Below, piece after piece: positions 49,175 to 64,000 of a stretch of DNA of 64,000 nt. The notes under the pieces are model-generated. The model saw only the letters and a list, made by a program, of their open reading frames with translations. It did no database searches and was not told where the DNA came from. Numbering within the stretch: position 1 is the stretch's first letter; each line of letters starts with the position of its first letter. Position numbers and translations under genes: made by a program. Origin of the DNA: Cupriavidus basilensis (GTDB lineage: Bacteria > Pseudomonadota > Gammaproteobacteria > Burkholderiales > Burkholderiaceae); contig NZ_CP062803.1 of NCBI RefSeq assembly GCF_008801925.2, positions 1,116,001 through 1,180,000 on the forward strand. Direction: 5' to 3'.

Positions 49175-50623
49175 TCAGGCGGCGTCGTTGGCGGGCAGTG
49201 GCGCGGGCCCGGCACGATGGCGGAACCGGAGCAGGTAGGCCACGCTGAGCACTGCCAGGAAGGGGATGCCTGTGAGCAGCGTCATGCGGAAGGCGTCGGT
49301 AAACAGGGTGGTCAGCATGATGGCCAGCAGCATGCCGGCACCTAGCAGCGTGAGCACGGGGAAGCCGCGCATGCGGAAGGCCAGGGGGCGGTTGCCGGCG
49401 GCGGCCCATTGGCGGCGGAAGCGGTAGTGGGTGACGAAGATCATGAACCAGGTGAAGAGGGCGCCGAACATGGAAATGGCCATCATCAGCAGGAAGGCAT
49501 CGCCGGGGTAGAAGACGTTGAGGCCGGTGGCCAGCGCGATGCCGATGCTGGAGAGCAGCAGCGCGCGCACGGGGATGCCGCGCTTGCTGACTGCGCCGAA
49601 GCTGCGCGGCGCCTGCCCGGCGCGTGCCAGGCTGAACATGGTGCGGGTGGTGATGTAGAGCTGGCTGTTCATGGCGGACAGCGCGGCGATCAGCACGACG
49701 AAGTTGATGATGGCGGCGGCGCCCGGCACGTGGACGGCTTCCATCACCTGGACGAAGGGGCTTTTCTGCGCGCCGGCCTGGTTCCAGGGGACGATGGCGA
49801 GCATCAGCGCGAGCGTGAGCAGATAGAACAGGCCGAGCCGGATCATGGTGGAGCGGAAGGCTTGCAGCACGGCGCGCTCGGGGTCCTGGGCTTCGCCGGC
49901 GGCGACCGCGATCATCTCGATGCTGAGGTAGCTGAAGATCGATACGATCACCGCGACCCACATGCCCCACAAACCGTTTGGCAGGAAGCCGCCGTGCGCC
50001 GTGTAGTGATGGAAGCCGGCGCCGGCCGCGCCGCTGCCGGTGCTGCCGGGCGCGCCGAAGACGATGTAGGCGGCCACCAGGATAAAGGCGACGATGGCGA
50101 TGATCTTGACCATCGAGAACAGGTACTCGACGGCGCCGAAGATGCCTACGCCCACCAGGTTGATCAGGATCAGCGCGGCGGAGAACGAGACGATCCAGAA
50201 CCAGGCGGGCACCTGCGGGAACCAGTACCCCATGTAGAGCGCCACGGCGGTGACTTCGGTGCCGACCGCGAGCACGATCGAGGCCCAGTAGGCGTAGCGC
50301 ACCAGGAAGCCGGCGAGCGGGCTGACATAGTGCTCGGCATAGGCGCCGAAGGAGCCGGAGGTGGGGTGGGCTACCGTCATCTCGGCCAGGCAGCCCATCA
50401 GCAGCAGCGTGACCAGTGCACCGATGGCGTAGCTGAGCAGCACGCCGGGGCCGGCGAAGCCGATGGCAAAGCCGCTGCCCATGAACAGGCCGGTGCCGAT
50501 GGCGCCGCCAATGGCGATCATGGCGAGCTGCGCGGGTTTGAGGCTGCGGTGCAGGCCTTGCTCGCGCTGGACGATTTGCTGGAAGCCTCCGCTTGCGTGG
50601 CGTTGCCCGTTTCCTTGTTCCAT
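49175..50623 (-). CDS. APC-family amino acid permease (GABA/aromatic type)
   Basis: This 482-residue inner-membrane protein has about 12 transmembrane helices. The APC signature is in AMIAIGGAIGTGLFMGSGFA near residue 35, followed by PTSGSFGAYAEHYVSPLAGF and YLSIEMIAVAAGEAQDPERA. It resembles GabP/AnsP/ProY-type transporters. It lies 112 bases downstream of the 3-hydroxyanthranilate operon on the same strand and could carry an aromatic amino acid or its breakdown product, but this is inference. The start is preceded by AGGAGGAGAC. Confidence 0.87.
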   Translation of the reverse strand: MEQGNGQRHASGGFQQIVQREQGLHRSLKPAQLAMIAIGGAIGTGLFMGSGFAIGFAGPGVLLSYAIGALVTLLLMGCLAEMTVAHPTSGSFGAYAEHYVSPLAGFLVRYAYWASIVLAVGTEVTAVALYMGYWFPQVPAWFWIVSFSAALILINLVGVGIFGAVEYLFSMVKIIAIVAFILVAAYIVFGAPGSTGSGAAGAGFHHYTAHGGFLPNGLWGMWVAVIVSIFSYLSIEMIAVAAGEAQDPERAVLQAFRSTMIRLGLFYLLTLALMLAIVPWNQAGAQKSPFVQVMEAVHVPGAAAIINFVVLIAALSAMNSQLYITTRTMFSLARAGQAPRSFGAVSKRGIPVRALLLSSIGIALATGLNVFYPGDAFLLMMAISMFGALFTWFMIFVTHYRFRRQWAAAGNRPLAFRMRGFPVLTLLGAGMLLAIMLTTLFTDAFRMTLLTGIPFLAVLSVAYLLRFRHRAGPAPLPANDAA

Positions 50624-50735: not shown

Positions 50736-52375
<1,640 letters not shown>

Positions 52376-52380
<5 letters not shown>

Positions 52381-52798
52381 GCGGCAGCGGCCGGTAGGCC
52401 ACGGCCTTGATCTCGATGAGCAGATGCGGGTGCGGCAGCTGATGCACGGCCACGGTGGTGCGGGTCGGGCCGTCGTAGTCGAAGTACTCGCCGTAGACCT
52501 CGTTGTAGCCGCCGAAATCGTTCATGTTGACGAGAAAGGTGGTGATCTCCACCAGGTCGGACAGATCGCAGCCGACGCTTTGCAGGATCTCGCGGATATT
52601 GAGGATCACGGCGCGGGTCTGCTCGCGGATGTCGAGCGCGGTCACGCCCATGGCGTCGGCGCTGGCGCCGGCGAAGCTGTTGTCCGCGCGGCGCGAGCTG
52701 GTGCCCGAGACGAACAGGAAGTCGCCGGCCCGCTTCACGTGCGGGAAGCGGCCGCGCGGGGTGGCCTTGTCGGTCAGGACTTTGGAAAGCGTAGTCAT
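52376..52798 (-). CDS. nbaF: 2-aminomuconate deaminase (RidA family)
   Basis: This 140-residue RidA-fold protein deaminates 2-aminomuconate to 4-oxalocrotonate. It has the signature [39 protein letters not shown] and the C-terminal [20 protein letters not shown]; Arg and Glu of the RidA active site are in [12 protein letters not shown] and LIEIK regions. The gene lies between nbaG and nbaC, as in the nba cluster. A second RidA gene of similar type is encoded at 60970. Confidence 0.9.
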
Positions 52799-52814: not shown

Positions 52815-53585
52815 TCAGCGTGTGCTCAGTTCGACTTGCCCCAGCCCGCTCACGCGGGTGCGTACGTGGCAGCCGGGACGCAGCGGCTCGGCCGCGGTGG
52901 CAGCGCCGGCCATGATCAGCGAGCCGGCCGGCAGCACCATGCCGGCCTGCGCCAGCAGTTGCGAGGCCTGCACCAGCGCGCGCAGCGGGTTGCCGAGGAT
53001 GGCCGCGGTAGTGCCGAGCTGCGCCGGGCGGCCGTCGATCTCGAGCTGCACGCCGCGGTTGGCCAGCGCGCAGTCCGGGCGCGACCACGGTCCCACCACC
53101 AGCGCGGCGGACGAGCAGTTGTCGGCGACGACGTCGGCCAGCGAGAACTTGAAGTTGCGATAACGCGAGTCGATGATCTCCATGGCCGGGGCCACCGCCT
53201 CGATGTAGCCGCCGGTATCGAGCAAGGTGAGCGGGCCGGCGATATCGCGCGATGTCAGGAAGCACACCTCGGGCTCGATGCGCGGATGGATAAAGGCATC
53301 GAGCGCGAGCGCGGCGCCTTCCTCGCACAGCATGGCATCGGTGAGCTGGCCCCAGATGAGGCTGTCCACGCCCATCTGGACCATCTTGGCGCGGCTGGTG
53401 AAGCCGAGCTTGATGCCGAGCGGTTGCTCGCCGCGCGCGTGGCGCAGCGCGATGGCGCCGGCCTGGATGGCGTAGGCGTCATCGATGGAAAAGGGCGTGG
53501 CGCCGCCCAGCGGGTCGATGGCTTCACGCTGGCGCGCGGCGCCGTCGAGGCGGGTGGCGTACCGGGTAATCTGATCGGCAATCAT
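52815..53585 (-). CDS. nbaG: 4-oxalocrotonate decarboxylase
   Basis: This 256-residue protein of the hydratase/decarboxylase family converts 4-oxalocrotonate to 2-hydroxypenta-2,4-dienoate. [20 protein letters not shown] and [20 protein letters not shown] align with DmpH/XylI decarboxylases rather than with the DmpE hydratase; the downstream gene at 55665 has the hydratase pattern. Its ATG at 53585 overlaps the aldolase stop by 4 bases. The longer frame to 54719 is an open frame through the aldolase gene and is not real. Confidence 0.88.
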
Positions 53586-54700
53586 GCGGCACTCGCGATC
53601 GGGTTGTTGGTGGGGGCGGCGGTGGGATGGGCGCCGGGATGGGCGCCGGGATGCGCGGGATCGCGCTGGCGCAACAGGTCCAGCGCCACGTCCACGATCA
53701 TGTCTTCCTGTCCGCCGACCATGCGGCGGCGTCCGAGCTCGACCAGGATGTCGACGGTGGCGATGCCGTAGCGCGCGGAGGCAGCCTCGGCGTGGCGCAG
53801 GAAGCTGGAGTACACACCGGCATAGCCAAGCGCCAGCGTTTCGCGATCGACGCGCACGGGGCGGTCCTGCAGCGGGCGAACCAGGTCGTCCGCCGCGTCC
53901 ATCAGCGCGTAGAGGTCGGTGCCGTGCGCAATGCCCGCGCGGTCGATCGCCGCGATGAAGACCTCCAGCGGCGCGTTGCCCGCCCCCGCGCCCATGCCGG
54001 CGAGCGAGGCGTCCACGCGGTCGCAGCCGTGCTCCAGCGCCACCATGGAATTGGCCACGCCAAGCGACAGGTTGTGGTGAGCGTGCATGCCGGTCTCGGT
54101 GGCGGGATCGAGCACTTGCTTGAACGCATCGAAGCGCTCGGCCACGTCGCGCATCGACAGCGCGCCGCCGGAGTCCACCACGTACACGCACTGCGCGCCG
54201 TAGGATTCCATCAGCCTGGCTTGCTGCGCCAGCGCCGCCGGCGTGGTCATGTGCGACATCATCAGGAAGCCCACGGTATCCATGCCGAGCTTGCGCGCGT
54301 ACTCGATATGCTGGCGCGAGATGTCGGCCTCGGTGCAGTGGGTGGCGACGCGCACGGTACGCGCGCCGGCGTCGTAGGCCGCGCGCAGGTCGTGGATGGT
54401 GCCGATGCCGGGCAGCAGCAGCGTGGCCACGCGTGCGTGCTTGAGTTCCGCCGCCACCGCGGCGATCCATTCGAGATCGGTGTGCGCGCCAAAGCCGTAG
54501 TTGAAGCTCGAGCCGTTGAGGCCGTCGCCGTGGGCCACCTCGATGCTGTCCACGCGTGCGGCGTCCAGCGCGCGGGCAATGGCCACGGCTTGCGGCAGGC
54601 TGTATTGATGGCGGATGGCGTGCATGCCGTCGCGCAGCGTCACGTCCGACACATGGACTTTCTTCACGGTCTTGCCTGCGGGATGTGGTGCTGCTGTCAT
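53582..54700 (-). CDS. nbaI: 4-hydroxy-2-oxovalerate aldolase
   Basis: This 372-residue DmpG/BphI-type aldolase cleaves 4-hydroxy-2-oxovalerate to pyruvate and acetaldehyde. The TIM-barrel start [20 protein letters not shown] has the catalytic Arg-Asp and His; [20 protein letters not shown] carries the metal-binding HxH. It should form a complex with the acetaldehyde dehydrogenase encoded just upstream. A Pro/Ala/His-rich tail ([15 protein letters not shown]) is extra. It overlaps both neighbours by 4 bases. Confidence 0.94.
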
Positions 54701-55668
54701 TGGGTTGCTCCTTGCGCACGGGCCAGCTTGTGCTCGGCCACGCGCTCGGCGGCGGCCAGCGCGGCGGACGTCATGATGTCGAGATTGCCTGCGTAGGCGG
54801 GCAGGTAGTGCGCGGCGCCTTCCACCTCCAGGAACACCGAGACCTTGAGGCCGGCCAGGCCGCCGATGCCCGGCAGCGTGAGCGGGTGCGCCGGGTCGAT
54901 GCGCTCGAACTGGACTTGCTGCTTGAGCCGGTAACCGGGCACATAGGCGGCCACCTGCGCCACCATGCGCTCGACCGCGGCGCGGATGGCGTCCTGGTCG
55001 GCATCGCCCGCGGTCAGGCAGAACACCGTGTCGCGCATCAGCAGCGGGGGCTCCGCCGGGTTCAGCACGATGATGGCCTTGCCGTGCGCGGCGCCGCCCA
55101 CTTCCACGATCGCGTTGGCGGTGGTCTCGGTGAACTCGTCGATATTGGCACGCGTGCCCGGGCCGGCCGAGCGGCTGGCGATGGACGCGACAATTTCGGC
55201 GTAGCGCACCGGCGCCACTTGCGACACGGCGCGCACGATGGGAATCGTGGCCTGCCCGCCGCAGGTGACCATATTGAGGTTGGGCGCGTTGAGGTGGGCG
55301 TCCAGGTTGACCACCGGCACCACATAGGGGCCGATTGCCGCCGGGGTGAGGTCGATTACCTGGATGCCGTGCTTCTGCAGCACGGCGTTGTGATGCATAT
55401 GGGCGCCGGCCGAAGTGGCATCGAAGGCCACGCGGATGTCCGCGAAGCCGGGCATGCCGAGCAGCCCTTCGATACCTTCATGCGTGGTGGGCACGCCGAG
55501 GCGCTGCGCGCGGGCGAGGCCGTCGGAGGCGGCGTCGATGCCGACCATGGCGCCAACTTCCAGATGCCGGCCGTGGCGCAGGATCTTGATCATCAGGTCG
55601 GTGCCGATATTGCCGGAGCCGATGATGGCTGCGCGCAGGCGCGTGCGGGATGGCTTGCTCATGCTCAT
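54697..55668 (-). CDS. nbaJ: Acetaldehyde dehydrogenase (acetylating)
   Basis: This 323-residue DmpF/BphJ-type enzyme turns acetaldehyde, CoA and NAD into acetyl-CoA. The Rossmann motif is [16 protein letters not shown] near residue 15, and the catalytic Cys is in [15 protein letters not shown]. It is the channelling partner of the aldolase NbaI, with which it overlaps by 4 bases. It likewise overlaps the hydratase upstream by 4 bases. Confidence 0.95.
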
Positions 55669-56498
55669 GCGCAGGGCTCCTTGCTGGCCGGGGCGAAGCG
55701 GGTGGACAGGCGTCCCAGCCCTTCGATCTCCAGGTCGAAGACGTCACCGGCGACAACCGGCACCATCGGGCCCAGCGCGCCGGTCATGACGATGTCGCCG
55801 GCTTGCAGCGGACGGCCCACGCGCACCATGGTGTCGGCCAGCCACAATGCGGCGTGCAACGGATTGCCCAGGCAGGCGGCGCCGGTGCCGAGCGAGAGCT
55901 GTTCGCCACGGCGCTCCATCACCATGCCGCAGCCGATGAGGTCCAGGTCCGCCAGCTTGACGGGGCGCGAGCCGAGCGCGAACAGGCCGCTGGATGCGTT
56001 GTCGGCAATCGTGTCGGCCAGGCGGATATCCCAGTTGGCCACGCGGCTGCCGACGATCTCCGCAGCGGGCAGGGCGTAGGCGGTAGCGCGGATCAGGTCG
56101 GCGATGGTGTGGCGCTCATGCGCAAGCGGATGCGCCAGCACCAGCGCGATCTCGGCTTCGATCTTGGGCTGCAGCACGCGGCGCAGGTCGATCTCCTCGC
56201 CCTCGGCCACGGCCATGTCGGCGAACAGCATGCCGAAATCCGGCTCGCCCACGCCCAGCTGCTGTTGCACGGCGCGCGAGGTCAGGCCGATCTTGCGGCC
56301 CACCAGGCGGCGGCCTGCGGCGAGCCAGCGCTGCGTGTTGATCTCCTGCACCTGATAGGCGGCCTGTGGATCGGTTTCGCCGATCAGCGTGCGCACCGGC
56401 GCGCACGGCGCATGGCCGGCATGCGCCTGCCACAGCAGGTCGGCGGCCGTGCGGATGGCGGCGCCGGCGTTGGATGGTTGTCGGGTCTCGTTCGTCAT
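55665..56498 (-). CDS. nbaH: 2-oxopent-4-enoate hydratase
   Basis: This 277-residue enzyme hydrates 2-hydroxypenta-2,4-dienoate to 4-hydroxy-2-oxovalerate. [20 protein letters not shown] and [18 protein letters not shown] match DmpE/MhpD hydratases; [20 protein letters not shown] is the second signature. It starts 3 bases after the nbaE stop and overlaps nbaJ by 4 bases. In the P. fluorescens nba cluster an nbaX gene sits between E and H; none exists here. Confidence 0.92.
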
Positions 56499-56501
56499 GG
56501 C

Positions 56502-57971
56502 TCAGAGCTTGATGCAGATGTTCGCCACTTCCGAATAGAAGTCGAGCGAGTGGCGGCCGCCTTCGCGGCCCAGGCCCGAGAGGCCGACGCCGCCGAAGGG
56601 CGTGCGCAGGTCACGCAGGTACCAGGTGTTGACCCAGGTCAGGCCCACGCGCACCTGGCGCGCTACGCGGTGGGCGCGTGTCAGGTTGGTGGTCCACAGC
56701 GCGCAGGCCAGGCCGTAGGCGCTGTCGTTGACGCGGGCCACGACTTCGGCTTCGCTGTCGAACGGCGCGATATGGCAGACCGGGCCGAAGATTTCCTCGG
56801 TGACGCAGCGCGCGCTGTCGGGCAGGCCGGTCCAGATGGTGGGTGTCACGTATGCGCCTTCGTCGCGCGCATCGCCGAACACCGGCACCTTGCCGCCGCA
56901 GACCACGGTGGCGCCTTCTTCCACCGCGAGGCGGAAATACGACTCCACCTTGTCGCGGTGGCCGCGCGAGATCAACGGGCCCATGTCCACGCCATCATCG
57001 CCGGGGTAGCCGAGCTTGAGCGCTTGCGTGCGCGCCTTGAGCGCCGCCACGAAGGCATCGAAGATCGGCCGCTCGACAAATACGCGCTCGGAGCACAGGC
57101 AAACCTGGCCGGCGTTGGTAAAGGACGAGCGCAGCACGCCCGCCACCGCGGCGTCGAAATCGGCGTCGGCGAACACAACCGCGGCGTTCTTGCCGCCGAG
57201 CTCGAAGGAGATTTCCTTCACGCCGTCGGCCACCGCTCGCATGATGGTGCTGCCAGTCCTGGACTCGCCCGTGAACGTGATGGCGTCGATGCCGTCGTGG
57301 CGGGTGAGGAACTCGCCGGTGGAGCCGCCGCCGAAGCCGTGCAGCAGGTTGAACACGCCAGGCGGCACGCCGGCCTCGTGGATGACCTCGGCCAGCAGCG
57401 CGGCGGAGGCCGGGGTCTCTTCCGAGGGCTTGGCCACCACGGTGTTGCCGCACGCGAGCGCGGGCGCCACCTTCCAGGTCAGCAGCAGCAGCGGCAGGTT
57501 CCACGGCGAGATGATGCCGACCACGCCCACGGGCTTGCGCACGGTGTAGTTGAGCGCGCCCGCGCCGTCCGCCGTGGGCGTCTCGTACAGTTCGTTGCCG
57601 GCGGTCTTGGCGAGGTCGGCGAAGGTGCGGAAGTTGGTGACGGCGCGCGCTACGTCCAGCGTGCGGGCCTGGTGCTCGGGGCGGCCGGTGTCTTCCACCT
57701 CGGCGGCCACGAAGGCGTCGAAGCGGGCTTCGATGCCGTCGGCGATGCGGTGCAGCAGCGCGGCGCGCTGTTGTACGTCGAGTTGTCCCCAGGGGCCGTG
57801 CAGCGCGCGCCGCGCGGCTTGCACGGCGCGGTCCACGAGCGCCGCATCGGCTTCGCACACGTTGGCGACAAGGTGGCCATCGACCGGGCAGGTGTCGGGA
57901 AAAGTGCCGGCGCTGGCGACGAACTCGCCGTCGATATAGTGCCGGATGAGTGGAATGTTTTGCTTGGGCAC
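56502..57971 (-). CDS. nbaE: 2-aminomuconate 6-semialdehyde dehydrogenase
   Basis: This 489-residue aldehyde dehydrogenase oxidises 2-aminomuconate 6-semialdehyde to 2-aminomuconate. It has SPWNLPLLLLTWKVAPALAC, the glutamate in ISFELGGKNAAVVF and the catalytic cysteine in TNAGQVCLCSERVFV. The GTG at 57971, 8 bases after GGAG, is the chosen start; the frame extends to 58088 without better signals. It opens the operon; the LysR gene upstream ends 153 bases away. Related enzymes oxidise 2-hydroxymuconic semialdehyde; the operon context favours the amino substrate. Confidence 0.92.
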   Translation of the reverse strand: MPKQNIPLIRHYIDGEFVASAGTFPDTCPVDGHLVANVCEADAALVDRAVQAARRALHGPWGQLDVQQRAALLHRIADGIEARFDAFVAAEVEDTGRPEHQARTLDVARAVTNFRTFADLAKTAGNELYETPTADGAGALNYTVRKPVGVVGIISPWNLPLLLLTWKVAPALACGNTVVAKPSEETPASAALLAEVIHEAGVPPGVFNLLHGFGGGSTGEFLTRHDGIDAITFTGESRTGSTIMRAVADGVKEISFELGGKNAAVVFADADFDAAVAGVLRSSFTNAGQVCLCSERVFVERPIFDAFVAALKARTQALKLGYPGDDGVDMGPLISRGHRDKVESYFRLAVEEGATVVCGGKVPVFGDARDEGAYVTPTIWTGLPDSARCVTEEIFGPVCHIAPFDSEAEVVARVNDSAYGLACALWTTNLTRAHRVARQVRVGLTWVNTWYLRDLRTPFGGVGLSGLGREGGRHSLDFYSEVANICIKL

Positions 57972-58124
57972 GGGTTGGTCTCCGTGCTGCGCGGGGTGGG
58001 GGAAGGGTGCGCAGCGAGGACCAGTATATGGAGCGCCCCCCGGCCTTGCATAATGAAGAAGACGGCCCCAGGTATTCCAAAATGGCATGTCAGGAAGGGG
58101 CCAGGGTGGCCGGCTTCGGGGCGC

Positions 58125-59102
58125 TCAGCGCTCTTGCGACAGTGCGGCGGCTTCGCGCAGGCAGGCGATGAAGTGCGCGGCGGCGGGTGCCGGCGCGCGG
58201 TCCGTGCGCACCGAATAGCCGATGGTGCCAAAGCGCCCGATATCGCCCAGGTCGAGGATGGCCAGCAGCCCGAGGCGCACAAAATGATCGGCCACGTCGC
58301 GCGCCATCAGGCCGATGGCACCGAGATCCTGCATCAGCCCGATATTGGTCAGCAGCGAGAGCGACTCCACCAGGTTGGCGGGCACCTGCAGGCCGGCGTC
58401 GAGGAACATGCGCTCGGCTGCCAGGCGCGCGGGAGATTCGTTCAGCGGGAGGATCCACGGATGCGTGGCCAGTTCGGCCAGGCGCAGGCCTGCGCTGGTG
58501 GCCAGCGGGTTGTCGCGGGCCACCACCACGCACATCGCGGTGTCGTACAGCGCGGTGTGCGTGAGCGCGAACATGCGGGCAAGCGGCAGGTCGCTCTCCG
58601 GCAGGCGGCCGATGACCAGATCCAGCTCGCCGGTGGCAAGGGCGGGGAAGAGGCGGTCGGTGGGGGCTTCGCGCACCGTCACCAGGATGCCAGGGCGGCG
58701 CGTCTTCATCAGCGCGATGGTGCGCGGCAGCAGCCGCGCCGAGGCGGAGATCAGCGTGCCGACGATGACGTTGCCGGTGTCGCCCGAGCGGAAGCTGTTG
58801 AGCTCGTCGGTGAGGTAGCGCAGCTCGGCGATGACGGACTTCACGCGCTCGCCCAGCAGCAGGCCGTAGCTGGTGGGCACCACGCCGCGGTTGGTGCGCT
58901 CGAACAAGGGGACTTCGAGGTCTTCTTCCAGTTCCTGGATCGCCTTGGTGACGGCGGGCTGGGTCAGGCTCAGCTCACGCGCCGCCCGCACGATGGAGCC
59001 GGACTGCAGCACGCGATCGAAGATCAGCAGGGGCTTGAGCTTGAGGCGGCGCAGCATCACGTCGCTCAAGGTAACGGTGGGACGGCTGGACATGAGGCAC
59101 AT
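58125..59102 (-). CDS. LysR-type transcriptional regulator
   Basis: This 325-residue regulator has an N-terminal winged helix (LLIFDRVLQSGSIVRAAREL, LTQPAVTKAIQELEEDLEVP) and a periplasmic-binding-like effector domain (about residues 100-310). The pattern is close to PcaQ/GbpR-type regulators of aromatic catabolism. It lies in line with and just upstream of nbaE, so it probably activates the operon in response to a pathway intermediate. AGGCGGTCAAAGCA precedes the ATG at 59102. Unlike P. fluorescens, where nbaR encodes a MarR-type regulator downstream of nbaD, the regulator here is LysR-type and upstream. Confidence 0.9.
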   Translation of the reverse strand: MCLMSSRPTVTLSDVMLRRLKLKPLLIFDRVLQSGSIVRAARELSLTQPAVTKAIQELEEDLEVPLFERTNRGVVPTSYGLLLGERVKSVIAELRYLTDELNSFRSGDTGNVIVGTLISASARLLPRTIALMKTRRPGILVTVREAPTDRLFPALATGELDLVIGRLPESDLPLARMFALTHTALYDTAMCVVVARDNPLATSAGLRLAELATHPWILPLNESPARLAAERMFLDAGLQVPANLVESLSLLTNIGLMQDLGAIGLMARDVADHFVRLGLLAILDLGDIGRFGTIGYSVRTDRAPAPAAAHFIACLREAAALSQER

Positions 59103-59230: not shown

Positions 59231-60319
59231 TTACTCCGGCTGGATGCCGGCCGCTTCGATCACCGGCTTCCACTTCTTCTGGTCCTGCTTGATGCGCTGC
59301 GCGAATGCCTCGCGCGTCTCACCCAGCGGGATGATGCCGGCCTTCTCCAGGTGCGCGCGGAAATCCGGCTCGGCGATGATCTTCTTCGCCTCGGCGCCAA
59401 TCTTGTCCACGATCTCCGGCGGCATCTTCGACGGGCCGACCAGGCCGTTCCACGTATCCACCTGGTGGCCGGGATAGCTCTCGGCGATGGTGGGCAGCGA
59501 CGGCAGCTGCGGCAGCCGCTTGTCGCTGGATACGGCGAGCAGGCTGAGCTTGCCGGTGCCCGCGTACGGCATCACCTCGGACACGCTGGCGCTGTACAGG
59601 TCGATCTGGCCGGCCAGCACATCGGCCAGCGCCGGCGCGCCGCCGCGGTACGGCACCATGGTGGCTTGCACGCCGGCGCGGCTCAGGAACAGCAGCGCGG
59701 AGAGCTGGGTCAGGCCGCCGTTGCCGGCGTGGCCTACGTTGAGCTTGCCGGGGTTCTCCTTGCCATAGCGCACCAGGTCCGCCACGGTCTTGAAGTTGTG
59801 CCGGGTGCTGGCGGCAAGGATGAAGGGGTTGCCGCCGACGTTGACGATAGGCACGAAGTCTCGCACCGGGTCGTAGCGGATCTTGTTGGTCATCGGGGCG
59901 GTGACGATCTGCGTCATCGTCGACATGAACAGCACATAGCCGTCGGCCGGTGCGCGCGCGACATACTCCGCTGCGATCAGGCCACCGGCGCCACCGCGGT
60001 TGTCCACCACGAAGGGCTTGCCAAAGGTCCTGCCCAGGCGCTCCGCCAGCAAGCGCGCAATCATGTCGGTGTTGCCGCCGGGGGCAAACGGGACCACGAT
60101 GGTGACCGGACGCGCGGGCCAGGGTTCCTGCGCGTGGACCAGCGCGGGCAGCGCGGCCGCGAAGGCGAGTGCCAGGCTTGCGGCAAGGCGGCCGCCGAGT
60201 TTGCCAGCGATGCGCTTGCACGTTTTCGCCGTGCTGGCGGTTGGCGTTGGCTGCGCGATCGGCAGCGCGCCCGCTGCCTTTTGCGTCCATGTGCGGTGGA
60301 CGCTGTGTGTCTTCATCAT
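59231..60319 (-). CDS. Bug/TctC-family tripartite tricarboxylate transporter receptor
   Basis: This 362-residue periplasmic binding protein has an unusually long N-terminus (about 40 residues) before the hydrophobic core (LAASLALAFAAALPALVHA) and then the Bug features WPARPVTIVVPFAPGGNTD, GGAGGLIAAEYVARAPADGY and VPYRGGAPALADVLAGQID. GGAGGAGACAC precedes a double ATG. It is the last gene of the unassigned catabolic set and probably binds that pathway's substrate, likely an aromatic or carboxylic acid. No membrane partners are adjacent. Confidence 0.88.
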   Translation of the reverse strand: MMKTHSVHRTWTQKAAGALPIAQPTPTASTAKTCKRIAGKLGGRLAASLALAFAAALPALVHAQEPWPARPVTIVVPFAPGGNTDMIARLLAERLGRTFGKPFVVDNRGGAGGLIAAEYVARAPADGYVLFMSTMTQIVTAPMTNKIRYDPVRDFVPIVNVGGNPFILAASTRHNFKTVADLVRYGKENPGKLNVGHAGNGGLTQLSALLFLSRAGVQATMVPYRGGAPALADVLAGQIDLYSASVSEVMPYAGTGKLSLLAVSSDKRLPQLPSLPTIAESYPGHQVDTWNGLVGPSKMPPEIVDKIGAEAKKIIAEPDFRAHLEKAGIIPLGETREAFAQRIKQDQKKWKPVIEAAGIQPE

Positions 60320-60388
60320 GTGTCTCCTCCGTGGTGATTGCCGGCGTTCTTCGCTGGGGGAAGCGCCGCGCGCATTGTGTTCGGAAAT

Positions 60389-60973
60389 CTACTCGATGCG
60401 GCAGGCCTGCCCAAACGCGAGCCGGGGCAGCCGTGGGAACAGGCGCGCAGGGTCGCCGCGGCCGAGGTTGCACAGGAAGTTGACGCGCCAGCGGCCATCG
60501 GGGAAGAAGGCCTGGTTGACGGCCCCGGCGTCGAAGCCCGAGAGCGGCCCGCAGTCGAGCCCCAGCGCGCGGGCGGCCAGGATCAGGTAGCCGCCCTGCA
60601 TGGAGCTGTTGCGCATCGCGGTCTCCTGCGCCAAGGCCGCGTTGGCGGCGAACATCTCGTACATCGCCGGGCGGTGCGGGAACAGGGCCTCGGCCAGCGC
60701 ATGGAACTGCGTGTCGTAGGCAACGATGGCGGTGACCGGCGCCTGCATGACCTTGTCCACATTGGCGGGCGCGAGCGCCGGCAAGAGCTTGGCCTTGGCC
60801 TCGGGCGAGCGCGCGAACACCAGCCGCATCGGGCAGCAGTTGGCGCTGGTCGGGCCTTGGCGTACGAGCGCGTACAGGCGCTCCAGCGTGGCGTCGTCGA
60901 TGCTGTCCTCAAGCCAGCCGTTGTGGCTGCGGGCCGCCATGAACAGGGTGTCGAGCGTGGCGGTGTCGATCAT
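60389..60973 (-). CDS. RutE/HadB-like nitroreductase-family protein
   Basis: This 194-residue flavin reductase-fold protein is very close in pattern to E. coli RutE (malonic semialdehyde reductase): ARSHNGWLEDSIDDATLERL, LVRQGPTSANCCPMRLVFAR, LAQETAMRNSSMQGGYLILA and LGLDCGPLSGFD. FMN is expected. It overlaps the RidA gene by 4 bases; the start has GGAGGCCGC. In the rut pathway RutE is paired with RutA and RutB, which are absent here, so it may instead reduce another small aldehyde or a nitro or nitroso compound. The reaction is inferred. Confidence 0.85.
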   Translation of the reverse strand: MIDTATLDTLFMAARSHNGWLEDSIDDATLERLYALVRQGPTSANCCPMRLVFARSPEAKAKLLPALAPANVDKVMQAPVTAIVAYDTQFHALAEALFPHRPAMYEMFAANAALAQETAMRNSSMQGGYLILAARALGLDCGPLSGFDAGAVNQAFFPDGRWRVNFLCNLGRGDPARLFPRLPRLAFGQACRIE

Positions 60974-61383
60974 GCGGCCTCCTCCTCGCGCCATGCGGTG
61001 GCGGTGATCTCCACGCGCATGTCGGGGTGGGGCAGCGCGGCCACCGCCAGGCATGTGCGCGTGGGCACGGCGGCGGGGAAGTGGCGCGCGTAGGCGGCGT
61101 TGAAGGTGTCGTAGTCGGCCATGTCGATGAGGTAGCAGGTCATGGCCACGCAATCGGCCAGGCCCATGCCCTCGCTGGCGAGCGCACGCTCGATCTTGCC
61201 CAGCACGCAGTCGGTCTGCGCGGCAACGTCGTACACGCGCGTGCCGTCGGCGGCCATGCTGACGCCGGCGCAGCCATCGGCCGTGCGCGCGCTCATGCCG
61301 CTGACATGCACATGCCGCCCGGCGCGGCGGCTGGCCGTGTAGCGCGCCAGCGGTGGCGGGTCCTGCTGCACCGGCGCGCTCAT
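60970..61383 (-). CDS. RidA-family deaminase, aminomuconate-deaminase-like
   Basis: This 137-residue RidA-fold protein has HVHVSGMSARTADGCAGVSM, VAAQTDCVLGKIERALASEG and VAALPHPDMRVEITATAWRE, a pattern close to the aminomuconate deaminase NbaF encoded at 52376 rather than to general RidA. It may remove an imine or enamine amino group from a ring-cleavage product. It overlaps both flanking genes by 4 bases (RutE-like and DapA-like), so all three are translated together. Exact substrate is unknown. Confidence 0.85.
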   Translation of the reverse strand: MSAPVQQDPPPLARYTASRRAGRHVHVSGMSARTADGCAGVSMAADGTRVYDVAAQTDCVLGKIERALASEGMGLADCVAMTCYLIDMADYDTFNAAYARHFPAAVPTRTCLAVAALPHPDMRVEITATAWREEEAA

Positions 61384-62294
61384 GCTGGCAGCGCCACGCC
61401 GCGCAGTGCCGGCATGGCGGTGGCCATGGCTTGCGAGAGCTGCAGGGCGGCATCGGCCGCGAGCGGCACCAGCGGCGGGCGCACGTGGCGCCAGCCCGCA
61501 TCGCCCGCCAGCAGCGACAAGGTGTGCTTGACGGCAGCCACCATCGGGAAGCGCTCCGCGGCCTTGCGCACGGCGGTGATGCTGTCGTTCAGGCGCGCGG
61601 CCTCGGTCACTGAGCCATAGGCCAGCGCGATATCGCGCGCGTTGATGTTGTTGGTGGCGGAGATGCAGCCGGCGGCGCCCAGCGCCAGGCTGCGCAGCAT
61701 CAGGATTTCCGAGGCGGGGAAGATCGACAGGGTGGGGAAGCGCTCCAGCATCGCCACCACGTTGTCCCAGTCGCCGCTGCTGTCCTTCACGCCGGCGATC
61801 TGCGCGGGAAAGGCCGCCACCAGCCGCTCGATCAAGGGCAAGGTGATGGGCACGCCCGACATGGCGGGAATGTGATACAGCACGACGCGCAGCGCGGGAT
61901 CGTCCACGCGCTCGATCAGTTCGCGGTAGTAGGCGAACACGCCGTCCTCCTGCACGTTCTTGAAGAAGAACGGCGGCAGCACCAGCACGCCCGCGCAGCC
62001 GCGGTCGATGGCATGGCGGGTCAACGCCACGGCGTCGCCAATGGCGCAGCAGCCGGTGCCGACCAGCACGCGCTCACCCGGGATGCCGGCATCGATCACG
62101 GCATCGACCAGCGCCATGCGCTCCTCGAAGGTCTCCGAGCAGGCTTCGCTATTGGTGCCGGAAATCGCCACGCCGGCGCCGTCGGCCACGAGGCGCTGGC
62201 AGTGCGCGACGAAGGCCGGCAGGTTGATCGAGAGATCGTCATTGAAAGGCGTGACCACGGGCGCGAACACGCCGCGCAGTTTGTCTGCTGCCAT
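61380..62294 (-). CDS. DapA-family class I aldolase/lyase
   Basis: This 304-residue DHDPS/NAL-family TIM barrel has the Schiff-base Lys170 (AGVKDSSGDW) and Tyr140 (VVLYHIPAMSG) in place, and the GTNSEACSETFEERM motif near residue 46. Members of the family condense or cleave pyruvate and an aldehyde, or act as hydratase-aldolases in aromatic catabolism. A biosynthetic DapA is unlikely because the gene lies in a catabolic operon. It overlaps the RidA gene by 4 bases and follows the hydrolase by 26 bases. Confidence 0.87.
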   Translation of the reverse strand: MAADKLRGVFAPVVTPFNDDLSINLPAFVAHCQRLVADGAGVAISGTNSEACSETFEERMALVDAVIDAGIPGERVLVGTGCCAIGDAVALTRHAIDRGCAGVLVLPPFFFKNVQEDGVFAYYRELIERVDDPALRVVLYHIPAMSGVPITLPLIERLVAAFPAQIAGVKDSSGDWDNVVAMLERFPTLSIFPASEILMLRSLALGAAGCISATNNINARDIALAYGSVTEAARLNDSITAVRKAAERFPMVAAVKHTLSLLAGDAGWRHVRPPLVPLAADAALQLSQAMATAMPALRGVALPA

Positions 62295-62320
62295 GGGAAA
62301 GTCTCCTGTCTTGTTGTTGG

Positions 62321-63280
62321 TTATTTCGAGGCGGCGCGTTGCGTGACGACGGTACCGATGAAGTCGCTCAGCGCATCGGCCAGCGCGGTATCCGCGCTGC
62401 CGAGATGCGCCACCACGGAGGTATGGTTGTGGTGCGGCACCTGGACCACGCGCGGCGCGCGCCGCTGCGCCTCGGCGACGCGCGCGGCGTACTGCAGGGC
62501 GTAGAGGTCGAGGTAGGGGTTCTCATGCTCGGCGAACACCACCATCAGCGGCACCGTCAGCCGCTGCGCAAACGCCATCGGCGCACGTTGCTGCTGCTGC
62601 GCGCTGTCCGCGCCGTAGTAGGCGATGACGCCGCCGGCGTTGGGATTGTCCGGCAACGTGTCGGCCTGCAGGCGCGCGCTGACCAGCACCGCGCCAGCCA
62701 CGCCCGCGGCCTTGCCATCGAACAGCGGATCGCTCAATGCGCTGGCCACGTGGCTGCCGCCGGCCGAATGGCCGATGAGCACGATACGCCGCGCGTCACC
62801 GCCGTAGGCGCCCACCGACGCGCGCAGCCATGCCAGCGCCGCCACCACATCCTGCGCGCCGGCGGGATAGGGCGCCTGCGGCGCAAGCCGGTATTCCAGG
62901 TTCACGCCGACATAGCCCAGCCGTGCGAACAGGCGCGGCACGTTGGCGTAGATGTAGGGGCTGGCGTCCTTGTTGCCACGCAGGAAGGCGCCGCCGTGCA
63001 CGAACACCACCACGGGCAGCGTGCTGGCCGGCGTGGCATCGGGCGGCAGGTAAAGATCGAGCAGCTGGCGCGGATCGCCGCCGTAGGCCAGGCCGTCCAC
63101 GCGCCGCACGCCATCGGCGGGCAGCGCCGCGTGAACGGCGTCATAGATCTCGCAGACCTGCTTGCGGTTGCCCTGGATATCGCGCGCCCAGTCACGCCCC
63201 AGCGCGCGCATGGCATCGCGCTGCGCGGGCGACAGGCCTGGCAGGCGCTGGCCACCTGGCGGGCTGGCACCCTGGCTCAT
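62321..63280 (-). CDS. Alpha/beta hydrolase (HSL/BD-FAE-like esterase or C-C hydrolase)
   Basis: This 319-residue hydrolase has the oxyanion HGGAFLRGN near residue 95 and the nucleophile Ser172 in GHSAGGSHVAS; later FAEHENPYLD and VPHHNHTSVVAHLG provide acid and His candidates. The HGG motif puts it in the hormone-sensitive-lipase/carboxylesterase group, including some kynurenine formamidase-like and RutD-like enzymes. It overlaps the VOC gene by 4 bases, implying a role after ring cleavage or on an ester or amide substrate. Confidence 0.85.
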   Translation of the reverse strand: MSQGASPPGGQRLPGLSPAQRDAMRALGRDWARDIQGNRKQVCEIYDAVHAALPADGVRRVDGLAYGGDPRQLLDLYLPPDATPASTLPVVVFVHGGAFLRGNKDASPYIYANVPRLFARLGYVGVNLEYRLAPQAPYPAGAQDVVAALAWLRASVGAYGGDARRIVLIGHSAGGSHVASALSDPLFDGKAAGVAGAVLVSARLQADTLPDNPNAGGVIAYYGADSAQQQQRAPMAFAQRLTVPLMVVFAEHENPYLDLYALQYAARVAEAQRRAPRVVQVPHHNHTSVVAHLGSADTALADALSDFIGTVVTQRAASK

Positions 63281-63870
63281 GCCGCATCTCCGGCTTGCGG
63301 GTCCGCGGGCTGGTCTTCGTCCTTGGCCGGCTGCTTGCCATGCTTGGCGGCGAGCATGGCGGCGGGTGGGGTCACGACGAAGTGCGCCAGGCGATGGCGG
63401 TCGAAGGATTCGAGGTTGCGTTCCCAGGTTTGCGGCTCGTGCTCGGTATCGGTGGCGATGCGCTCCATGTCGGTGTAGATCTCGACGTTGTTGCCGTCCG
63501 GGTCCTTGAACACCAGGAACCAGTTGCCGCCCGGCCCATGCTGGCCGATGCCGCGCTCGATCACCACGCCGTGGCTGCGCGCCACGTCCACCGCGCGCTT
63601 CATCTCGTCCAGAGACTCCACGTAGTAAGAGAAATGCTCCAGGCCCGGGCGCGTGTAGCGCGGCAGGTCGTCGCGCTCGGCGCTGTCCTCGGGCAGGCGC
63701 GAGAGTGCCAGGTCGTGGTGGTCCTCGCCGGCGCGCAGGAACACCATCTGGTCGGCGATGCGGTCCGAGACCTTGAGGCCCATCACTTCCGTATAGAAGC
63801 GGGTGGATCGTTCCAGGTCGCGCACCATCAGCACCAGGTGGCCCAGCTTGCGGGTACGTATCGGGTTCAT
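63277..63870 (-). CDS. VOC-family protein with extradiol-dioxygenase-type metal triad
   Basis: This 197-residue protein is one VOC (glyoxalase/extradiol) module with an added C-terminal tail. The triad of ring-cleaving dioxygenases is visible: His11 (LGHLVLMV), His79 (GLEHFSYYV) and Glu130 (GNNVEIYTDM). The N-terminal start LGHLVLMVRDLERSTRFYTE is typical. The tail (WERNLESFDRHRLAHFVVTP then basic residues) is unlike glyoxalase I. It heads the readable part of the set, overlapping the hydrolase by 4 bases. Dioxygenase activity is inferred from the triad only. Confidence 0.85.
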   Translation of the reverse strand: MNPIRTRKLGHLVLMVRDLERSTRFYTEVMGLKVSDRIADQMVFLRAGEDHHDLALSRLPEDSAERDDLPRYTRPGLEHFSYYVESLDEMKRAVDVARSHGVVIERGIGQHGPGGNWFLVFKDPDGNNVEIYTDMERIATDTEHEPQTWERNLESFDRHRLAHFVVTPPAAMLAAKHGKQPAKDEDQPADPQAGDAA

Positions 63871-63952
63871 GCCAGTCTCCTCCAGGTCGCCGTGGCGATG
63901 CGTGTGGGCGCAGTGTGCCTGCGCCGCGCGCGCATTGCCACGGCGGTGGTGT

Positions 63953-64000
63953 TCAACGCGCCGCCAGCGCCTCTAGCGCCACTGCGTTCTTGATCGAGCC
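63953..64000 (-). CDS. C-terminal end of an unidentified gene cut by the window edge
   Basis: The frame open from the right edge ends with GSIKNAVALEALAAR and TGA at 63953-63955 on the minus strand, 82 bases upstream of the VOC gene. It probably belongs to the same operon; too little is visible to identify it. Confidence 0.5.
   Translation of the reverse strand, partial: GSIKNAVALEALAAR

Follow-up and report, generated by a model that had tools for sequence, protein, structure and literature searches.

A conserved Burkholderiales gene set with an extradiol-type VOC protein is linked to the 3-hydroxyanthranilate pathway

The window analyzed here, a stretch of 64,000 nucleotides from Cupriavidus basilensis (contig NZ_CP062803.1, positions 1,116,001-1,180,000; genome, 8.94 Mb), carries at its right end a set of catabolic genes next to an operon for the degradation of 3-hydroxyanthranilate, which arises from tryptophan breakdown. 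Six genes on the minus strand, within window positions 59231-63870, encode a single-domain VOC protein resembling type-I extradiol dioxygenases (63277-63870; 197 amino acids), an alpha/beta hydrolase of the BD-FAE/Abhydrolase_3 type (62321-63280; 319 amino acids), a DapA/NAL-type Schiff-base lyase (61380-62294; 304 amino acids), a RidA-family protein (60970-61383; 137 amino acids), a RutE-like malonic semialdehyde reductase (60389-60973; 194 amino acids), and a Bug/TctC periplasmic receptor (59231-60319; 362 amino acids). The original prediction had named these six families on a single strand, and all six genes were recovered there, with their families borne out by Pfam. Its description of the junctions as mostly 4-base overlaps holds for three of the five internal junctions (VOC/hydrolase, DapA/RidA, and RidA/RutE) but not for the other two, which are gaps of 26 and 69 bases. 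When the contig was extended to the right, as had been proposed, the missing first gene proved to encode an FAH-family hydrolase/hydratase (63953-64891, minus strand, of which 63953-64000 is inside the window; locus L003:5954-6892; 312 amino acids; Pfam FAA_hydrolase). Its last codons thus lie within the window, 82 bases from the VOC gene. Divergent to the FAH gene, or just beyond, are genes for a D-2-hydroxyacid dehydrogenase, a second VOC protein (VOC2) that weakly resembles methylmalonyl-CoA epimerase, a GntR/FCD regulator, two Gram-negative porins, and a protein of ∼600 amino acids with no match in Pfam (E ≤ 1e-5) or NCBIfam.

The VOC protein is closest by sequence to extradiol dioxygenases, but its scores on the HpaD model (TIGR02295; 84.9 bits, cut-off 321) and the catechol 2,3-dioxygenase model (TIGR03211; 75.8 bits, cut-off 320) fall below both cut-offs. 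The 2-His-1-Glu metal site of type-I extradiol dioxygenases is present (H11, H79, and E130). In an alignment of 120 homologues, those listed among the 417 found, H52, H79, H111, Val120, and E130 were present in all 120 and H11 in 117, with gaps in the remaining 3. H111 aligned with the corresponding His of catechol 2,3-dioxygenase (1mpy); H52 was left unpaired by the alignment and is presumably the other second-sphere catalytic His, as its HDxA motif would suggest. Val120 stood opposite the Tyr of 1mpy, and the equivalent residue of the VOC homologue at locus L076 stood opposite the Tyr of homoprotocatechuate dioxygenase (1f1r), so that the catalytic Tyr of catechol dioxygenases is absent from every aligned homologue. 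Glyoxalase-type VOC enzymes also carry a His-His-Glu triad, and the triad alone is therefore no proof of ring cleavage. The second-sphere residues say more than the triad and give mixed evidence: His52 and His111 are retained, and Val120 takes the place of the catalytic Tyr. Classic catechol meta-cleavage was set aside on account of the model cut-offs and the missing Tyr. The VOC protein may act on a substrate that does not require the catechol Tyr, such as an aminophenol-like compound. Its closest named relative, from C. basilensis OR16, is 95% identical.

The other enzymes could be placed in families with differing precision. The FAH protein matches Pfam FAA_hydrolase (PF01557) with 255 bits, with homology across the C-terminal FAH domain, and its best solved relatives are HpaG/HpcE (1gtt, 192 bits) and 2,4-diketo-3-deoxyrhamnonate hydrolase (8gsr, 184 bits). 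Its best NCBIfam model, 2,4-didehydro-3-deoxy-L-rhamnonate hydrolase, gave 224 bits, below the cut-off of 500. The alpha/beta hydrolase is esterase-like (nearest solved relative, esterase 4zrs, 149.9 bits), with a Ser in GHSAG at 170-174 and candidate His residues at 283, 284, and 286. In the DapA-like lyase, the Schiff-base Lys170 is kept in the motif VKDSSGD; the protein scored 119.7 bits on the dapA model, under the cut-off of 206, as well as on aldolase models, and its YHIPAMSG motif presumably places Met where DHDPS has Arg138. All of the residues named in the original prediction (VOC His11/His79/Glu130, the Ser and candidate His residues of the hydrolase, and the Lys of the lyase) were found. 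The RutE-like protein scores 283 bits on the NCBI model of malonic semialdehyde reductase, above the cut-off of 152. The RidA protein reached 49 bits on the RutC model (cut-off, 169), and the Rut pathway was set aside because of this shortfall.

Matches to the VOC protein (E ≤ 1e-30) were found in 4 of 399 genomes of the order (including the source genome), 5 of 60 genomes of the genus, and 42 of 398 genomes of the family. Gene content was compared by BLAST at 37 loci with a VOC protein 53-100% identical, taken from the contig, order, genus, and family searches; 20 of them were picked from the family matches for diversity, one (L078) is cut by a contig end, and six of the 17 loci from the contig search, those with distant or short VOC matches (L027-L032), were excluded. 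FAH and VOC genes stood together at all 37 loci, a pairing beyond chance, and were the only invariant pair. The GntR regulator was present at 35 loci, VOC2 at 28, the 2-hydroxyacid dehydrogenase at 27, the alpha/beta hydrolase at 26, and the DapA-like lyase at 25. Porins (25 loci) and the ∼600-amino-acid protein (15 loci, with some stretches ending before it), which lie to the right of the window at L003:11249-14304, also accompany the module. Every locus had an importer of one kind, either an NMT1-type ABC importer (21 loci) or the Bug receptor (16 loci), never both. RutE was found at 10 loci and the module RidA, counted at ≥67% identity, at 5, all in Cupriavidus; the RidA of the 3-hydroxyanthranilate operon itself, 37-40% identical and present in five rows of the comparison, was not counted. 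Three Achromobacter loci had the identical gene order without RidA, and six Pigmentiphaga-type loci (L019, L020, and L022-L025) consisted of FAH, VOC, and Bug genes with GntR. At L035, L076, and L081, a distinct DapA-type protein, and at the last two also a distinct alpha/beta hydrolase, was beside FAH and VOC, suggesting a requirement for these activities.

The set in the window is best read as one form of a Burkholderiales import-and-cleavage module in which FAH and VOC are invariant. RidA as a deaminating enzyme and RutE as an aldehyde reductase, both part of the original prediction, were set aside as core steps given how few loci carry them, and the loci do not support the Bug protein as the dedicated receptor in general, with the ABC importer taking its place at most of them. 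The view that the combination belongs to no known pathway is in line with the literature searched: none of the open-licence PMC papers listed, for several topics only the top of the list, describes the module.

Related gene sets were seen in two groups. In two Pigmentiphaga genomes, a second locus (L114:5107-11018 and L115:8830-14108) carries a hydroxyacid dehydrogenase, VOC2, Bug, an FAD monooxygenase, an alpha/beta hydrolase, and RidA, with GntR adjoining it in L114, and is apparently a sister module with a hydroxylase. Relatives of this FAD monooxygenase (E ≤ 1e-70; best four candidates per genome scored) occurred in 12 of 398 genomes, with G047 the one VOC-positive genome among them, and the enzyme was rejected as a general upstream hydroxylase. 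Genus g4 has a second version of the module (L076:6550-14954 and L081:4270-13436) with the distinct DapA-type lyase, the distinct alpha/beta hydrolase, and a porin; genome G602 carries both versions.

The neighboring operon includes the gene for 3-hydroxyanthranilate 3,4-dioxygenase (HAO; 51746-52294, minus strand), which was identified by the Pfam 3-HAO family, PRK13264 (275.5 bits; cut-off, 220), and TIGR03037 (252.6 bits; cut-off, 146) and served as the query for co-occurrence. The window protein and four remote copies (L117, L118, L119, and L122) exceed the cut-offs of the curated HAO models. In the family draw of 398 genomes, in which VOC and HAO were each called at E ≤ 1e-30 from the best eight candidates per genome, so that a few negatives may be false, HAO was detected in 82 genomes: all 42 of the VOC-positive genomes and 40 of the 356 VOC-negative genomes (Fisher P = 3.5e-34, uncorrected for kinship). 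Within the genus, all 5 VOC-positive genomes were among the 13 HAO-positive genomes (P = 2.4e-4, assuming that the draw included all 60 genomes of the genus; again uncorrected for kinship). Twelve further genomes with a close VOC protein, from Achromobacter, Pigmentiphaga, and others, all had HAO, bringing the total to 54 genomes; the 17 entries of this further check yielded 15 positives, comprising these 12, two repeats, and one of three genomes with a distant VOC protein. Among the genomes examined, the close form of the module therefore occurs only where HAO is present.

The two loci are also physically linked. In 17 of 21 genomes measured (drawn from the 42 VOC-positive genomes), the VOC and HAO genes were separated by 7.6-19.3 kb, in at least two arrangements. 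At four of five Cupriavidus loci and at the loci read in genera g6, g176, and g177, the module is directly followed by the LysR and semialdehyde dehydrogenase genes of the HAO operon or by the dehydrogenase gene alone. In the four genomes of genus g5 that were read (G702, G750, G758, and G781), the HAO operon is on the opposite flank, beyond the ∼600-amino-acid protein, and in G017 (L021), HAO is on a different contig from the module. The earlier suggestion that the set adjoins the 3-hydroxyanthranilate operon and may feed it is strengthened by the co-occurrence and this linkage. The module is a real, conserved, uncharacterized catabolic gene set that is tied strongly to a known central pathway.

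The nature of the compounds involved is suggested by genes that accompany the two loci. Genes for kynureninase and an amino acid permease are beside the module or at the end of the HAO operon in 12 genomes, pointing to kynurenine-type compounds. The kynureninase of L086 scored 317 bits on TIGR01814 (cut-off, 246), and the island copies of the other genomes are 83-95% identical to it. G000, G023, and G047, which form the clade of the window, keep the permease and lack kynureninase in the operon; each genome has one kynureninase elsewhere, which in the genome studied here is the single match at C1:3344879. Three of 16 VOC-positive genomes searched (G061, G374, and G790) have HAO and no kynureninase match, and their 3-hydroxyanthranilate must come from another source. 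In G061, an aspartate-dehydrogenase-family gene is directly upstream of HAO (L122:2673-3488). The permease and kynureninase were considered as fixed partners of the module and rejected, with 6 and 2 of the 37 loci, respectively, although these stretches often end before the HAO operon and the 12 genomes emerged once the operon was read out. At five loci in g4 (L073, L074, L075, L077, and L082), the permease is near the DapA-like gene of the module, with a porin in between.

With the module seen only alongside HAO in the genomes examined, production of 3-hydroxyanthranilate by the module is the most straightforward explanation, followed by clearance of a by-product of the route. The role of the module is thus probably to supply or to protect the 3-hydroxyanthranilate route. 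Our tentative preference, which we rate at somewhat less than an even chance, is that the module turns an imported aromatic or heteroaromatic acid into 3-hydroxyanthranilate and a C3 unit for the HAO operon. The imported substrate would have a 3-hydroxyanthraniloyl-type ring and would be derived from tryptophan, for example as a deaminated or cyclized 3-hydroxykynurenine. The VOC protein would carry out an O2-dependent cleavage with no need for the catechol Tyr. No enzyme other than FAH accompanies VOC at every locus, which suggests a hydrolytic key C-C cut that releases pyruvate from a dioxo acid; FAH would split a 2,4-dioxo acid as the keto-acid counterpart of kynureninase, which frees alanine. 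The FAH superfamily includes acylpyruvate hydrolases, and FAHD1 has acylpyruvate hydrolase activity (PMC7056447). The alpha/beta hydrolase might take off an acyl or formyl group or open an ester. The small fragments might be handled by the DapA-like lyase and the 2-hydroxyacid dehydrogenase, together with RutE and RidA at loci that have them. The resulting 3-hydroxyanthranilate would then be degraded by the HAO operon. Xanthurenate, phenoxazinones, and hydroxyindole acids are no more than candidates for the substrate. A more specific form of this proposal, a kynureninase-free branch of kynurenine catabolism in which xanthurenate or another deaminated or cyclized 3-hydroxykynurenine derivative is imported, oxygenated by the Tyr-less VOC, and cut by FAH as an aroylpyruvate hydrolase to 3-hydroxyanthranilate and pyruvate, is considerably less probable.

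Several observations weigh against production of 3-hydroxyanthranilate by the module. The part of the module in the window encodes no ring hydroxylase. A simple acylpyruvate route would not require as many enzymes as a DapA-type lyase, FAH, and two VOC proteins. Kynureninase was found in 13 of the 16 VOC-positive genomes searched, where its conversion of 3-hydroxykynurenine to 3-hydroxyanthranilate leaves no strict need for a second route. The VOC and HAO genes were 0.9-1.1 Mb apart in all four g4 genomes measured, and two of the three genomes examined with distant VOC relatives (30-39% identical; L027-L029), those of L027 and L029, had no HAO match. In a control comparing 40 of the 42 VOC-positive genomes with 40 of the 356 VOC-negative genomes, gentisate dioxygenase was also associated with VOC (31 of 40 versus 10 of 40; Fisher P = 2.4e-6), so that lineage, or genome size, explains part of the link between VOC and HAO but not the complete association (40 of 40 versus 6 of 40 in the same genomes; P = 8.7e-17). 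HpaD was not associated with VOC (1 of 40 versus 5 of 40, none above its cut-off).

The one-way dependence of the module on HAO could also be accounted for if the module degraded a compound thrown off spontaneously by the HAO route or its substrates and was useful only together with HAO. Such products include quinolinate and picolinate from ring-cleaved semialdehydes, cinnabarinate-type phenoxazinones from 3-hydroxyanthranilate, and xanthurenate from 3-hydroxykynurenine. Burkholderia xenovorans forms picolinate on 2-aminophenol and is inhibited by it (PMC3790839), and molybdenum-hydroxylase-type large subunits, scoring under the cut-offs of the models that they matched, are encoded near HAO in two VOC-positive genomes (L119 and L120). 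However, the 40 VOC-negative genomes with HAO manage without the module, its own genes in the window include no hydroxylase, and the porins and dedicated importers that accompany it suggest uptake from outside over internal repair. We consider this explanation rather unlikely. The evidence for lineage as a factor in the control lends some weight to an independent meta-cleavage pathway, in which VOC would open a polyhydroxylated ring, FAH and the DapA-like lyase would free pyruvate and a small semialdehyde, and RutE would reduce malonic semialdehyde where it is present, with HAO and the module sharing soil and root niches rather than metabolites. The similarity of VOC to extradiol dioxygenases and of FAH to HpaG/HpcE fits such a pathway, and the DntD-DntG route of 2,4-dinitrotoluene degraders uses VOC and FAH-type enzymes to form pyruvate and a malonate-type semialdehyde. 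Such independence does not predict HAO in 42 of 42 and 12 of 12 genomes or the repeated adjacency, and both the uniform Val at the position of the catechol-type Tyr and the lack of a hydroxylase among the module genes are at odds with it; we regard it as unlikely.

The pathway put forward in the original prediction, in which an aromatic or heteroaromatic amine would be cleaved by VOC, hydrolyzed, deaminated by RidA, and split by the lyase to pyruvate, with RutE reducing the aldehyde, has the merit that all of its genes exist in the window, and RidA adjoins an alpha/beta hydrolase in the second Pigmentiphaga locus as well (L114 and L115). We nevertheless find it improbable: at 5 and 10 of the 37 loci, neither RidA nor RutE is in the common route at this locus, and the constant FAH partner, encoded outside the window, was left out of account. 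Even less credence is given to a route with no ring cleavage at all, for sugar-acid-like compounds or keto acids, in which FAH would be a diketo-acid hydrolase, the DapA-like protein a keto-deoxy-acid aldolase, the divergent gene product a 2-hydroxyacid dehydrogenase, and VOC an isomerase or epimerase. The rhamnonate hydrolase model that FAH matches best, the scores of the DapA-like protein on aldolase models, and the epimerase-like character of VOC2 are compatible with it, whereas VOC has His52 and His111 beside the metal ligands, like extradiol dioxygenases, and the linkage to HAO points to aromatics.

The HAO operon, like the module, is on the minus strand. Between the two is a gene for a LysR regulator (58125-59102) that is PcaQ-like, under the cut-off of that model. 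The first enzyme gene of the operon encodes a 2-hydroxy/2-aminomuconic semialdehyde dehydrogenase (56502-58088; TIGR03216, 855.9 bits, cut-off 693) and is followed by genes for a 2-oxopent-4-enoate hydratase-like protein of the FAH family (55665-56498; under model cut-offs), acetaldehyde dehydrogenase (acetylating) (54697-55668; TIGR03215, 466 bits, cut-off 282), 4-hydroxy-2-oxovalerate aldolase (53582-54700; TIGR03217, 583 bits, cut-off 286), a 2-oxo-3-hexenedioate decarboxylase-like protein (52815-53585; under the model cut-off), and a second RidA-family protein at the position of 2-aminomuconate deaminase (52376-52798), a role assigned by operon order. Beyond HAO, the product of 50736-51749, which had no NCBIfam match at E ≤ 1e-15, is a putative aminocarboxymuconate semialdehyde decarboxylase (ACMSD), a name that we take from operon order. 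The amino acid permease gene (49175-50623) follows kynureninase at the end of the operon in related genomes.

The surroundings of HAO differed in other genomes. In two VOC-positive genomes (L119:9617-18988 and L120:9453-14148), HAO is near a DapA-like gene, a periplasmic receptor, and the molybdenum-hydroxylase-type large subunit. In some VOC-negative genomes (L090:3360-7646 and also L092, L095, and L103; profiles were run on L090 only), the genes preceding the HAO operon encode an acyl-CoA ligase, a transporter, and a thiolase-like protein and perhaps represent another route into 3-hydroxyanthranilate. In genus g4, the HAO operon (L084:6671-7636 and L096:13011-13883) includes a branched-chain-type ABC importer of its own as well as an HSL-type alpha/beta hydrolase; the hydrolase in L096 is 28% identical to the one near VOC in L081.

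These results connect a module of the Burkholderiales with a single defined central pathway, that of 3-hydroxyanthranilate, which narrows the search for its substrate from any aromatic compound to a short list of those that can end in 3-hydroxyanthranilate. If production of 3-hydroxyanthranilate by the module is confirmed, a Tyr-less VOC subfamily and an FAH subfamily of many bacteria from soil and roots could be given a function, and the kynureninase-free branch, if true, would give bacterial catabolism of quinoline-type tryptophan waste products a gene set.

Of the known systems, the Rut pyrimidine pathway shares only the RutE-like reductase with the module among the features tested; RutA, RutB, and RutF were not recognized by eye among the open reading frames of the window and its flanks, a scan that involved no profile search aimed at them. 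XylE and homoprotocatechuate 2,3-dioxygenase have the VOC fold, the metal ligands, and two further His residues in common with the module VOC, which differs from them in consisting of one domain only, in having Val120 for Tyr, and in scoring 76-85 bits against cut-offs of ∼320. In the fde (naringenin) and ifc (isoflavone) clusters of Herbaspirillum and Variovorax, a glyoxalase-type protein is assigned to A-ring dioxygenation (PMC11069340). Compared by gene content, they resemble the module in this protein and, in ifc, in an alpha/beta hydrolase, but they have an FAD monooxygenase and cupin proteins, whereas the window module has neither and instead has FAH and the DapA-like lyase (PMC11069340). 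By Pfam and NCBIfam profiles, an FAD monooxygenase was absent among the FAH-to-Bug genes and the divergent genes of this genome, to which the check applied; the open reading frames of its relatives were annotated in part.

The operon next to the module is close to a described one. Cupriavidus sp. ST-14 degrades 2-nitrobenzoate via 3-hydroxyanthranilate by the onb pathway, and the gene types for HAO, decarboxylase, semialdehyde dehydrogenase, deaminase, and the lower meta-pathway (onbC-J) are as in the window operon (PMC5817917). The FAH-VOC module is not among the ten core structural genes whose roles are described there, a comparison that covers those genes and not onbX1, onbX2, and onbX3 (PMC5817917). 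The kynureninase route, which converts 3-hydroxykynurenine to 3-hydroxyanthranilate and alanine, is represented by kynureninase and the amino acid permease in the linked island of 12 genomes; in the route proposed here, the module would differ by using FAH on a keto acid.

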